Part shown: in pieces, positions 43,727-61,264 of the stretch
Layout: each line of letters begins with the position of its first letter
Position numbering within the stretch: the first letter of the stretch is position 1
Origin: Procambarus clarkii
Taxonomy: Eukaryota; Arthropoda; Malacostraca; Decapoda; Cambaridae
DNA: 64,000 nucleotides
Reading direction: 5' to 3'
NCBI RefSeq assembly: GCF_040958095.1
Contig: NC_091175.1
Coordinates: forward strand, 18,326,195 to 18,390,194
The notes under the pieces: generated by a model
Databases searched by the model: none
Told to the model about the DNA's origin: nothing
Seen by the model: only the letters and a program-made list of their open reading frames with translations
Position numbers and translations under genes: made by a program

Positions 43727-43800
43727 ATGGGGGTTCAACACTCCCTGTCTCGCCTTCCTTGGAGAAAGAAGCACATGATATTCGCTGAAACCACCAACAG
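43727..43800 (+). CDS. Candidate exon 1 of receptor copy 1
   Basis: This 74-bp segment starts ATGGGG and ends CCAACAG|GTATGC in phase 2, exactly the phase exon 2 needs. Its 24 codons share the pattern M-G, K-x-H-[MV]-I and N-R with exon 1 of copies 2 and 3, and the DNA upstream of the ATG is similarly rich in GTGTTGG and GGGGCCA in all three. Identity is low (roughly a third). In-frame ATGs also occur at 43724 and 43709. This is inference, not proof. Confidence 0.5.
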
Positions 43801-46800
43801 GTATGCCAATTGGACAAACTCGGTAATTATATATACATAAATACCACGGAGGATATATTTGATATTGATTCTATTGTTTGCAAACTCGCACACTACCTAA
43901 TTGATGGGTGACCTTGAAGTAATTCCGAGGTGTAATTTCCCCGCGGTCCGGTCTCCAAACCTGGTTGAAGGAAGAGTTTGGACCAATCGGAAACCTGGTG
44001 GCTTAGTCACTATCCATTCCCACTATCTATCACAACAACAGTCTATCACATTGACATTAGCAGTCATTATCCTTAGTTAATGTCATCAATAAAGTTGATA
44101 TTGTTATCTAAGTTGATGACACTGGAGTAAAGAATATTGATGCTGTGCGGCTAACAGCCTGGTTGACAACCAGGCGGCCTGGTCCAACCCGTTCTCGCAC
44201 TTTCTTACACTCAATATTGACTTATTAAATACGTGCATATGTGACATACTAAACATACTAGTTTACCTTGAAAAGCTTAATAGAAAACACCGACCTTACC
44301 TAACCTTCTTAGTATGTTAAGATAAGCATCTTATTGCTTCGTAATTACAATTATTACTTAACCTATACCTATAATAGGTTATTAATAAGCATCTTATTGC
44401 TTCGTAATTACAATTATTACTTAACCTATACCTATAATAGGTTAAGTAATAATTGTAATTACGAAGCAATAAGATGCTTATCTTAACATACTAAGAAGGT
44501 TAGGTAAGGTCGGTGTTTCCTATGAAGCTTTTCAAGGTAAACTAGTATGTTTAGTATGTCACATATGCACGTATTTAATAAGTCAATATTGACTATATGA
44601 AAGTGCGAGAACGGGCTGCCTCGTCAGAGACCGGGCCGCAGGGACGTTCATCCCCGAGTCAAGAATCACATCTGTACATTTACTTTAGTATGGGCTCCAC
44701 ATGACGGGAAAGGAGTCACCAAGAGACTGGGCCGCAGTCTCTTGATGGCCCATTGACTGGGGCCACGAAACTTCCTGACTGGAAGATACTTATCTTCGAC
44801 AATGCACTAGAAGACACGAGGCTGTCACCTAAGAATGCAATGAAGGTAGGGTGATTAATCTATGCTGGGAAAGTGAAGACCAAATTCAGATAGTAGTAGG
44901 CATCCATCAGTCTCGGGAGACTTTGGGGGTTGCGCTCTGGTTGTCGGCCTAGAGTGGCCTCTCCAGGGCGCAAAGCCAGGGTAGGTTGATACGGGGGAGA
45001 AGCTGTTACCCATGCAGCAGGTCCCCCCCTTTCCAAGGTGCCGAAAGTCCCCAATGGAAAGGCAAACGCCAATACGGTACAATAGATAACACTTGGTTTA
45101 AAAGCCCTTGGTTTAAGAATCCCTCGTTTAACAGCCTTTGGCTTAACATTCCTTACCTTAACAATTCTTGGTTTAACAGCCCTTGGTTTAACAGCCTTTG
45201 GTTTAACAGTCCTAGGTTTAACAGTCCTTGGTTTAACAGTCCTAGGTTTAACAGCCCTTGGTTTAACAGTCCTTGGTTTAACAGTCCTAGGTTTAACAGT
45301 CCTTGGTTTAACAGCCCTTGGTTTAACAGTCCTAGGTTTAACAGTCCTTGGTTTAACAGTCCTAGGTTTAACAGCCCTTGGTTTAACAGCTCTTGGTTTA
45401 ACAGCCCTTGGTTTAACAGCTCTTGGTTTAACAGCCCTTGGTTTAACAGTCCTAGGTTTAACAGCCCTTGGTTTAACAGTCCTAGGTTTAACAGCCCTTG
45501 GTTTAACAGCTCTTGGTTTAACAGCCCTTGGTTTAACAGAGAATGCGTAGAAAAAACTCATAAACAAAAGGAAAACAAATACCTGGTTGATGGGGTTATG
45601 GGAGTTCTTCTACTCCCCAAGCCCTGCCCGAGGCCAGGCTTGACGTGTAAGAGGGGGGGGGGGGGTTCTATCAGGCTGTTGCTAGGAGCGGCCCGCAGGC
45701 CCACATATCCACCATAGCCCGGTTGATCTGATAGTTCTTGGAAGAAAATGATCTAGTTTTCTCTTGAAGATGTCCACGGTTGTTCCGGCAGAATTTCTTA
45801 TTTCAAATCGCGATGTTCTAATATTGCCCTTTCCTAACTCACGTGGTTGTGGTAACACATTTGCTCCCTTGCTGAATATATTTGAAAAAATTGTTGACCT
45901 GGTAAAGATTGGTAGTAATATATATATTAATACGAGTAACCCACAGTCTAAGGAATTTATTATTATTATTATTATTATTATTATTATTATTGTTGTTGTT
46001 GTAACTAATATTTATTACTCTTCCTTCTGCTGAGTAAATGAAGGAAGCCGTTCTCGGGTGAACGAGGGCTGTGACGATCTCTTTCTGGAACCCGTAGGTG
46101 CGGGACCGGGACGTCCACCCCCTGGGGCTCGTGCGGCCCCAGGCTCTGCTTCAGAAGACTATGGAATCGTTCTTGTCCTTGCTGGGGTGGTTCTTCTCTG
46201 GCCCCGACCACGGCGGTGTCCGGGTTTGGAGTCCCTGTGCCTTCTTTTACCAACTTCGAGGAGCCCCTAAGGCAGTTCGTTGTTGCCTTCAACCTCATTC
46301 TGACAGTTCCTGCGACGGCGCTGGAACCAATCGTATTGCCGTTTGCCGATTCCATTGGAGACTTTCGGCGCCGTGGTGAGGGGGGACCTGCTGCATGGGT
46401 GACAGCTTCTCCCCCGAATCAACCTACCCTGGCTTTGCGCCCTGGAGAGGCCACTCCAGACCGACAACCAGAGCGCAACTCCATAGTCTCCTGAGACTGA
46501 TGGCTGCCTACTACTAACCCACAGAATGTTTGACATTGCAGGAATGTTGACCAACGGGGCGTAGGAGCCGTGGGCGGGACGTGGGTGGTGTTATGGGTGG
46601 AGTGGGCGGGAGTACTGCTGGGTCTGCTGCCCCTGGGCGGCCCCCATGGACGCTGGTCGCTGACGAAGACGCTGCTGGCCCCTACCATGGCCCTCATCTT
46701 CCTCATCATGATCTTATTATTCGTAGTTCTGTTTGTCTGTAAGTATATACATATATATATGTGAGTAAGCTGCAGGAACACGCAACCCATAGAGTCCAGG

Positions 46801-60195: not shown

Positions 60196-60712
60196 GCTGG
60201 AAATATAATTTATTATGTGATTCGCCATTCTTGTTTGATGGTTTTGCTTTCTCGGCTGGTCGACCCATCCGTGACAGTCAACAGCCTAGTTACGTCCACT
60301 GAAGCTGACACCAACCTAGTTTTGACCAGGGAGAGCTGTCAACAGCCATGGGCCGCTATCAACAACAAAGCCTTGACTACGGAAGCTGTCATTAGCCAAA
60401 GTATTTATTTCCCAAGGTTATGAAGACGATGTAACGCCATAATATTTCGTGACACGTCAACCCCCCTGCCCCTCTGATTAATGTAAGGGGTCGATGAACG
60501 CTTATTCATTTTATACTGGATGAAGGGAGCTATGTTTGCCTTCCACAGCCACACCCAGGCAACGAAAACAGCTCCACGGTACGAGCCACTTGCCTTGTTG
60601 ATCTAGTTGTGTATTGAAGCTAAAGTGTTAGGGTCGGTGTTGGGACCAGTGTTAACGGGCAGTGTTGGTGTCAGTGTTGAGGCTAGTTTTGGGGCCAGTG
60701 TTGGTGTAGGAG

Positions 60713-61264
60713 ATGGGACTCTACCTTTCACAGCTCCTCACAATTCGGAATAAGACGCATGTAATCTCCATCACTGGCGTCCACAACAGGTAGGACAGAT
60801 AACCTGACAAGCACAACGGGTAGTGTGTGTATATATATATATATATATATATATATATATATATATATATATATATATATATATATATATATATATATAT
60901 ATATATATATATATATATATATATATATATATATATATATATATATATATATATATATATATATATATATATATATATATATATATATATATATATATAT
61001 ATATATATTCTTCACTGCAAATGAACATTACTATAGTATTAGTCAGGCTGCCTCACTTGCATTATAGGAATGTAGACCAACGGGGCGTAGGAGCCGTGGG
61101 CGGGACGTGGGTGGTGTTGTGGGTGGAGTGGGCGGGAGTACTGCTGGGTCTGCTGCCCCTGGGCGGCCCCCATGGACGCTGGTCGCTGACGAAGACGCTG
61201 CTGGCCCCTACCATGGCCCTCATCTTCCTCATCATGATCTTCATATTCCTAGCTCAGGTTATCT
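60713..61264 (+). CDS. Gustatory receptor family gene, copy 3, exons 1-2 only
   Basis: Exon 1 is 60713-60789 (begins [20 protein letters not shown]) and exon 2 is 61068-61264. Both have intact frames and splice sites and are close duplicates of copy 2. They are separated by about 180 bp of pure (TA)n. Downstream, similarity to copy 2's intron continues to about 61440, then repeats and a Penelope-like element follow. No exon 3 is visible before the window ends. It is partial or broken; the remaining exons could lie beyond 64000. Confidence 0.75.
60830..61008. repeat. Very long pure (TA)n
   Basis: About 89 uninterrupted TA units in intron 1 of receptor copy 3; the sister copy has about five. 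Confidence 0.97.

Follow-up and report, generated by a model that had tools for sequence, protein, structure and literature searches.

A 64,000-nucleotide window of the Procambarus clarkii genome carries a cluster of tandem gustatory-receptor (Gr; 7tm_7, PF08395) genes, an identification supported by profile matches, a family motif, and intron position. As a refinement of the original prediction, the cluster is read not as three independent genes but as one complete gene (copy 1) followed by a composite locus, in which three 5′ units (copies 2, 3, and 4) stand before a single 3′ end. Copies 2 and 3 have lost their own last two exons and are probably spliced to those of copy 4, and exon 2 of copy 1 appears to have been overwritten by that of the other copies through gene conversion. 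Feature coordinates are collected in Table 1.

Table 1. Exons of the receptor cluster and the deletion junction; positions refer to the window unless otherwise stated.
Feature	Position	Strand	Remarks
Copy 1 exon 1 (tentative)	43727..43800	+	74 nt, phase-2 donor; best-scoring candidate
Copy 1 exon 2	46542..46738	+	197 nt; GLLPL motif and TM1; splice sites intact
Copy 1 exon 3	48247..49073	+	827 nt, main transmembrane exon, phase-0 donor; 7tm_7 31.5 bits
Copy 1 exon 4	50792..50878	+	87 nt, GFYTVSR, phase 0 at both ends
Copy 1 exon 5	51101..51202	+	TM7 (SYLAIILQF) and stop
Copy 2 exon 1	55791..55867	+	77 nt; conserved in copies 3 and 4
Copy 2 exon 2	55971..56167	+	197 nt
Copy 2 exon 3	57021..57877	+	857 nt, open frame, donor GAG|GTAAGA; 7tm_7 27.3 bits
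Deletion junction, copy 2	58249..58277	+	intron 3 continues directly into sequence that in copy 4 follows exon 5
Copy 3 exon 1	60713..60789	+	77 nt
Copy 3 exon 2	61068..61264	+	197 nt
Copy 3 exon 3	69026-69891 (window scale)		past window end
Shared exon 4	78939-79025 (window scale)		C26 18405133-18405219
Shared exon 5	81533-81628 (window scale)		C26 18407727-18407822

Copy 1 (43727-51202, forward strand) is a complete five-exon gene with a tentative exon 1. The joined product of 428 aa matches Pfam 7tm_7 at 67.1 bits (E 2.3e-18), against 31.5 bits for the exon-3 frame alone, and this gain on joining argues that the exon structure is not a product of chance. The end of exon 3 together with exons 4 and 5 contributes 27.3 bits over profile positions 329-369 of 370. 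The predicted C-terminal sequence GFYTVSR...TSYLAIILQF was found divided between exons 4 and 5, and exon 4 was also matched in the whole-genome search with the copy 4 exon-4 query. The weakest part of the gene model is exon 1, which was chosen among 33 candidate first exons within 10 kb upstream of exon 2; its score of 21 compares with peaks of 7 or less in seven of eight control stretches, the remaining one reaching 25.

Joined to the shared exons, copies 2, 3, and 4 score 71.3, 66.3, and 64.9 bits, respectively, against a Pfam cut-off of 26.6 bits, so that the Gr identity first suggested from the letters alone holds for the joined exons. Of the 370 profile positions, copy 2 exons 1-3 alone span 8-282, and the shared exons 4 and 5, preceded by the end of exon 3, span 327-369, placing the C terminus in TM7 as had been predicted. 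Exon 3 alone of copies 3 and 4 falls below the cut-off (23.7 and 23.6 bits). A Pfam search with nine frames of the window returned no match at E 0.01. The profile was matched in 0 of 14 control genomes. Both sets of C-terminal exons carry the TM7 motif (T/S)YhhhhhQF, as TYLVILLQF in shared exon 5 and as SYLAIILQF, with S for T, in copy 1. In both, a phase-0 intron lies exactly six codons before this motif, a position and phase treated as a Gr hallmark in the available part of PMC2680840. A simple hydropathy scan gave eight hydrophobic peaks in each of the four copies, the first of which corresponds to the GLLPL segment that precedes TM1.

That the genes belong to another seven-transmembrane family, such as class A GPCRs or transporters, with the 7tm_7 match arising spuriously from hydrophobicity, is scarcely credible. 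Such a reading could draw on the structural searches, as neither phmmer nor hmmsearch against PDB sequences (with copy 1, copy 2 plus shared exons, and a six-row alignment) found a match up to E 10, and an AlphaFold2 model of exon 3, with two window copies as alignment, reached a mean pLDDT of 40.9, too low to use. It could also draw on weak matches to CitMHS, Fam20C, and Trehalose_recp; every one of these, however, is under its cut-off, whereas the joined products match 7tm_7 with E about 1e-17 to 1e-19, in two stretches that follow profile order, and possess both the TM7 motif and the intron position and phase of the family.

In each of copies 2, 3, and 4, exons 1-3 retain an intact start codon, reading frame, and set of splice sites. 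All exons of 77 and 197 nt originally described (both lengths in copies 2 and 3, 197 nt in copy 1) were confirmed; their phases match and their splice sites are intact. Exon 1 of copy 2 is additionally conserved at C26:24084685, which is probably exon 1 of a paralogue, d2. The count of three tandem copies needs amending: the copies are real, but exon 3 of copy 3 lies beyond the window, a fourth copy follows copy 3 past the window end, and copies 2 and 3 are without C-terminal exons. It had also been expected that simple open-reading-frame calling would show only exon 3 of two copies, with false starts. Exon 3 of copies 1 and 2 does appear in this way (false starts at 48228 and 56972), but these are not the sole exons shown, since frames 55945-56229 and 60823-61326 (at least 80 aa) cover the second exons of these two units, copies 2 and 3, in the correct frame.

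A single pair of C-terminal exons lies 3′ of copies 2, 3, and 4, 15-18 kb past the window end. The possibility that copies 2 and 3 each end in their own C-terminal exons was rejected, as none lies between copies 2 and 4: tblastn over 134 kb and blastn over 52 kb returned only chance-level exon-4/5 matches there (E >1), and the remaining strong exon 4 matches in the genome each pair by position with another exon 3. The cause is visible in the DNA. At the junction in copy 2, blastn matches to copy 4 run at 77805-78198 and then resume at 82176-82617 (window scale), with d2 collinear. The same deletion of about 4 kb, removing exons 4 and 5, is present in copies 2 and 3; the simplest reading is that it occurred once, before these copies were duplicated. 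Loss of exons 4 and 5 leaves two readings of copies 2 and 3, as alternative N-terminal cassettes or as 3′-truncated copies, and their intact frames and splice sites mildly favour the former.

As cassettes, copies 2 and 3 would give rise to transcripts in which the phase-0 donor of exon 3 is joined to shared exon 4, skipping the units between. One locus could thereby yield three receptors with differing TM1-6 and loops and a common TM7 and C terminus, and by analogy with their family these proteins would act as ligand-gated cation channels in chemosensory cells. The distances to be bridged, 21 kb from exon 3 of copy 2 and 9 kb from that of copy 3, are within range, given that gaps between exons 3 and 4 elsewhere in the genome reach 43-141 kb. 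Since exons 2 and 3 of every unit have acceptors, however, a transcript starting in copy 2 must pass over four nearer ones; choice of the nearest one by copy 2 exon 3 would be out of frame.

These competing acceptors within the downstream units also suit a second reading, in which copies 2 and 3 are young, 3′-truncated pseudogenes that have not yet collected stop codons, leaving only copies 1 and 4 to make receptors. This is a serious possibility, albeit one falling clearly short of an even chance. It accounts readily for the common deletion of exons 4 and 5, and no purifying signal is apparent on the branch of either copy: private synonymous and nonsynonymous substitutions number 5/16 in copy 2 and 4/5 in copy 3, not distinguishable from neutral. 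Exon 3 differs between the two copies by 6.8%, about the noncoding rate (7.1% pooled; 5.9% for the copy 2-3 part). The complete paralogue d2 has the same substitution pattern (8:21), however, and hence the pattern is not diagnostic of pseudogenes. Moreover, copies 2 and 3 contain neither a stop nor a frameshift, and every splice site is intact. The absence of stop codons was rejected as proof of function, being unsurprising alone. Frame-breaking indels are more telling: 3.9 would be expected in exon 3 of copies 2 and 3 from the noncoding parts of the duplicates (intron 3 of copies 2-3 pooled with the 5′ flank of copies 3-4) and none was observed (P 0.021), an estimate that draws on few events in A+T-rich noncoding DNA. 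The copy 2-3 noncoding part alone predicts 5.3 (P 0.005).

Exon 2 of copy 1 appears to have a history of its own. Synonymous divergence between copy 1 and copies 2-4 is 0.02-0.06 in exon 2 against 0.57-0.64 in exon 3, and gene conversion, with copies 2-4 as donors, apparently overwrote the first ~156 nt of the exon. Its final 39 nt and the sequence on either side of it are of the type found in d1, a distant paralogue closer to copy 1. Conversion would keep this exon near-identical to its counterparts in copies 2-4 while the other exons diverge. From copy 1, exon 2 dS is 0.12 to d2, 0.19 to the closer paralogue d1, and 1.1 to a homologue on C77. Strong selection on codons or RNA could in principle yield the same near-identity, and protein identity between copy 1 and d2 is indeed higher in exon 2 (84%) than in exon 3 (50%). 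This explanation is nonetheless very unlikely, since low synonymous divergence is local rather than general across exon 2 and is interrupted by the d1-type end and flanks; it was looked for in five distant members and not found, and exon 2 dS from copy 1 to matches on C27, C29, C49, and C53 is 0.67-2.83.

Genome searches returned 46 large-exon Gr frames that are open; dropping near-identical ones leaves at least 42. The searches also gave 11 strong matches and 1 weak match to exon 4. Judged by contig, strand, and order, 11 of the 14 exon-3 copies each have a single exon 4 partner. Of the three left unpaired, copies 2 and 3 are situated 5′ of the exon 4 that belongs to copy 4, and a copy at C38:39.06 Mb has none. 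Exons 3 and 4 are 43-141 kb apart in eight of the 11 pairs and 1.1-1.7 kb apart in the other three. Taken as a whole, the fuller scenario has somewhat less than an even chance of being right: an exon-sharing locus at birth, formed by a single deletion, survival through splicing past the three-exon units between to the last exons of the next gene, and cassette duplication, with exon 2 conversion between subfamilies and a large decapod Gr repertoire missed by transcriptomes.

Gustatory receptor-like (GRL) 7tm_7 proteins are known from decapods (PMC7067487, PMC13372173), and the TM7 motif is described for those of PMC7067487. In the available parts of these two papers, transcriptomes hold 0-4 per species, as against the 46 genomic frames here; PMC13372173 in addition drew on three decapod genomes for GR sequences. 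A literature search, from which most subscription papers were out of reach, found no published Gr census for any decapod genome, crayfish included. The hemocyanins also make a decapod host plausible: two M-domain matches in this genome reach 368-379 bits against the decapod entries 6l8s and 1hc1 of the PDB and 173-191 bits against the chelicerate entries 1lla and 3ixv. The crustacean neurohormone profile PF03858 is uninformative in this respect, having no match either here or in 14 control genomes. The low decapod counts may reflect undercounting, perhaps because several exons are short and introns reach up to 141 kb in this subfamily, and low expression would conceal such genes further. Compared with the Daphnia Grs, as far as PMC2680840 describes them in its available part, the presence of two short 5′ exons, followed by introns of phase 2 and phase 1, is different. 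In the six C26 copies the large loop preceding TM5 contains a 14-aa repeat, which sets them apart from insect and crustacean Grs; the four distant members aligned lack it.

Closer likenesses are found in insects. In beetles, the Gr and Or genes described in the available text of PMC6720082 seem to share C-terminal exons among N-terminal units that have several exons each and exclude one another, as in the two-exon A1-A2 units of DponOr2a/b; that text gives no account of how the arrangement arose. The Drosophila gene Gr39a, from what is accessible of PMC2204066, likewise has several alternative 5′ coding units before one block of short C-terminal exons; unit duplication is common to both loci, and gene conversion is mentioned for Gr39a too. 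The crayfish locus matches this layout in its several 5′ units, single downstream C-terminal block, and compatible phases. In Gr39a, however, each unit is one large exon that has a donor but no acceptor, so that the first acceptor sits at the shared block, whereas each unit here consists of three exons with acceptors at exons 2 and 3. The locus is therefore not filed as Gr39a-type, but as one that may work like it, splicing having been demonstrated for Gr39a and being proposed here. Unlike in Gr39a as that source presents it, the origin of the arrangement—deletion of 3′ exons—is visible, and the locus offers, in adjacent copies that differ in state, a picture of the way in which separate receptor genes might become one alternatively spliced gene.

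The three tandem gustatory-receptor (Gr)-type copies of the original prediction have all their named exons in place, with consensus splice sites and the predicted lengths. Simple ORF calling had been expected to show only exon 3 of two copies: exon 3 of copies 1 and 2 is indeed shown in the list of frames of at least 80 aa, but exon 2 of copies 2 and 3 also lies inside longer frames. Copy 1 has five exons, the first tentatively assigned, and its joined product is 428 aa long without internal stops. Exon 1 of copies 2–4 is supported by a fourth homologue elsewhere on the same contig. 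The tRNA match between copies 1 and 2 and the repeated 80-nt element at 54310 and 54751 are perhaps a tRNA-derived SINE.

Features of the locus and its surroundings (window positions, numbering continued past the window end; C26, NC_091175.1; C49 and C77, other contigs of the same genome)
Feature	Position	Strand	Remark
Copy 1 exons 1–5	43727-43800, 46542-46738, 48247-49073, 50792-50878, 51101-51202
Copy 2 exons 1–3	55791-55867, 55971-56167, 57021-57877
Copy 3 exons 1–3	60713-60789, 61068-61264, 69026-69891		Exon 3 past window end
Copy 4 exons 1–3	73628-73704, 73808-74004, 76942-77804
Shared exon 4	78939-79025
Shared exon 5	81533-81628
Tandem repeat, 42 nt (14 aa), in frame	48683-48803, 57487-57607		Loop before TM5
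Degenerate partial exon 4 core copy	50891-50918		Directly after copy 1 exon 4 donor; weak, E 0.13
Degenerate partial exon 4 core copy	79050-79084		Directly after shared exon 4 donor
Reverse-transcriptase frame, LINE-like	38830-39909	-	PF00078, E 7.9e-16
Tandem repeat, 15-bp unit	45092-45569		Copy 1 intron 1
hAT transposase C-terminal fragment	47030-47434	+	Copy 1 intron 2; PF05699, E 1.7e-7
Reverse-transcriptase frame, LINE-like	52525-54297	+	Between copies 1 and 2; PF00078, E 4.2e-35
tRNA match	54469-54539	+	Rfam, 44.7 bits; beside repeated 80-nt element (54310, 54751)
Exon 1 homologue	C26:24084685		75% identity, E 0.002
Orphan exon 2 homologue	C77:18277106-18277291	-	58%; contig without listed subfamily exon 3 or 4
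Exon 2 homologue	C49:1521658-1521828	-	Opposite strand to C49 exon 3 (1.72 Mb), hence not its partner

The region examined, which extends 20 kb before the window and 50 kb past its end, also contains a fourth copy, followed by a single pair of C-terminal exons. Neither tblastn over the 134 kb nor short-word blastn over 43000-95000 returned a further exon 4 or 5 between copies 2 and 4, even as a remnant, the matches there being at chance level alone. Intron 3 of copies 2 and 3 follows that of copy 4 up to 78198 and then continues at copy 4's 82176-82177, past exon 5, with an identical junction in both copies. Here copy 4 is matched collinearly, apart from some gaps, by the paralogue d2 (C26:23.97 Mb), in which both exons are retained. 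The shared jump and the collinearity of d2 thus indicate that a deletion of around 4 kb removed exons 4 and 5, most simply before copies 2 and 3 separated.

The lone exon-3 frames score 31.5 and 27.3 bits against Pfam 7tm_7. Joining the exons of copy 1, as the original prediction had proposed, raises its score to 67.1 bits (E 2.3e-18); copy 2 with the downstream C-terminal exons scores 71.3 bits (E 1.2e-19). Exons 1–3 of copy 2 by themselves cover profile positions 8-282 (38.5 bits), and the last residues of exon 3 with shared exons 4 and 5 cover positions 327-369/370 (37.7 bits). The TM7 signature claimed for copy 1 is found at the start of exon 5 (MMNFVT|SYLAIILQF); shared exon 5 begins MMTSLS|TYLVILLQF. 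In both C-terminal sets, a phase-0 intron lies exactly six codons ahead of the TM7 motif, and the intron preceding exon 4 is likewise phase 0. According to PMC2680840, an intron of this phase and spacing is present in nearly every Daphnia Gr and in most of those of insects. A simple hydropathy scan gave eight peaks per copy, beginning with the GLLPL stretch. The predicted structure model has a pLDDT of 40.9, too low to be usable, and PDB sequence searches returned no match; Grs are described in PMC13372173 as tetrameric ligand-gated channels. The 14-aa loop repeat varies in length among six C26 copies and is absent from four aligned distant members.

Searching the genome (4.03 Gb, 2308 contigs) with exon 3 of copies 1 and 2 gave 24 and 23 rows, several loci being split across two, and 14 exon-3 loci in the subfamily. 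Eleven of the 12 rows for exon 4 are strong, each preceded by an exon 3 by contig, strand, and order; from these positions we infer pairs in copy 1, copy 4, d1 (a second C26 paralogue), and d2, with one each on C27, C38, and C49 and two each on C29 and C53. Exons 3 and 4 lie 43–141 kb apart in eight pairs and 1.1–1.7 kb apart in three. A C38 exon 3 at 39.06 Mb is without an exon 4 partner and differs by one residue from that at 33.73 Mb. The exon 2 search gave 13 rows.

Exon 2 is the site of putative gene conversion. Synonymous divergence between copy 1 and copies 2–4 is 0.57–0.64 in exon 3 and just 0.02–0.06 in exon 2, with 0.79 in exons 4 and 5 against copy 4; for copy 3, this equates to 2/54 sites in exon 2 versus 84/195 in exon 3 (Fisher P 3.6e-9). 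General synonymous-site constraint was ruled out as the cause because copy 1 exon 2 diverges by 0.67–2.83 from its distant matches on C27, C29 (two), C49, and C53. Within copy 1 exon 2, the first 156 nt mismatch copy 3 at two sites and d1 at 11; over the last 39 nt, the mismatches number seven and six, respectively. By exon 3, d1 is the closer paralogue of copy 1, and the bases flanking copy 1 exon 2 are of d1 type; the flanking introns gave no useful alignment. A milder case is seen at the other C26 site, between d1 and d2 (exon 2, 0.16; exon 3, 0.64; P 1.7e-4).

It is moderately probable that at least one of copies 2 and 3 uses the shared exons. In favour of function, both retain intact start, frame, donors, and acceptors; against it, splicing to the nearest acceptor produces a frameshift, and since the units carry acceptors, productive splicing must skip these. 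Gap counts also favour function. Over 1540 bp, the noncoding reference (copy 2–3 intron 3 plus the copy 3–4 5′ flank) shows 109 mismatches and nine gaps, of which seven are frame-breaking. Copies 2 and 3 differ in exon 3 by 58 mismatches over 855 bp and a single 9-nt gap: no frame-breaking gap was observed, versus 3.9 expected (P 0.021), or 5.3 from the copy 2–3 noncoding part by itself (four in 646 bp). Copies 2 and 4 differ in exon 3 by a 9-nt gap and by two more, of 2 and 1 nt, that together make up one codon; copies 3 and 4 differ by a single 3-nt gap. Branch-private synonymous/nonsynonymous substitutions number 5/16 (copy 2), 4/5 (copy 3), 6/6 (copy 4), and 8/21 (d2). Weighing against function, no branch clearly deviates from neutrality, copy 4 being marginal (P 0.048 in one of three settings), and copies 2–4 and d2 combined give P 0.08–0.35; because d2, a complete gene, shows such a pattern, it may only mean fast evolution of the family. 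Pairwise dN/dS in exon 3 is 0.46–0.85 among copies 2–4 and reaches 1.1 for copy 2 against d2.

Hemocyanins also form a large family in this genome, with 31 M-domain rows, 23 of which span the full profile (C52, C16, C78, C89). Two of these domains score 368–379 bits against PDB 6l8s and 1hc1, which we take to be decapod, versus 173–191 bits against 3ixv and 1lla, presumably chelicerate.

At E 0.001, the genome search with 7tm_7, in which 111 of 182 candidates were scored, gave at least 12 matches; the profile had no match in 14 control genomes. Single-receptor queries added clusters on C6, C48, and C49 (36 rows) and on C61 and C26 (10 rows). With the 7tm_7, exon-3, and single-receptor searches combined, a hand count gives 46 open large-exon Gr frames (C6, 10; C26, 8; C48, 7; C49 and C61, 6 each; C29, C53, and C38, 2 each; C27, C41, and C76, 1 each), these being frames rather than proven genes, Pfam-tested only in part and with copies 2–4 counted as three. 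Frames of at least 240 aa with no stop in the match were counted, rows from one place being merged; rows with stops, shorter frames, and the C6 frames 8321022 and 8374484 (longer, but with stops in adjacent pieces) were left out. Exon 3 is near-identical within each of the C53, C38, and C29 pairs, as is exon 2 between C27 and C29; if near-identical frames are assembly duplicates, 42 would be left. Transcriptome GR counts, in the accessible parts of the sources, are 1–4 in four decapods (PMC7067487) and 0–2 in four vent shrimps (PMC13372173).
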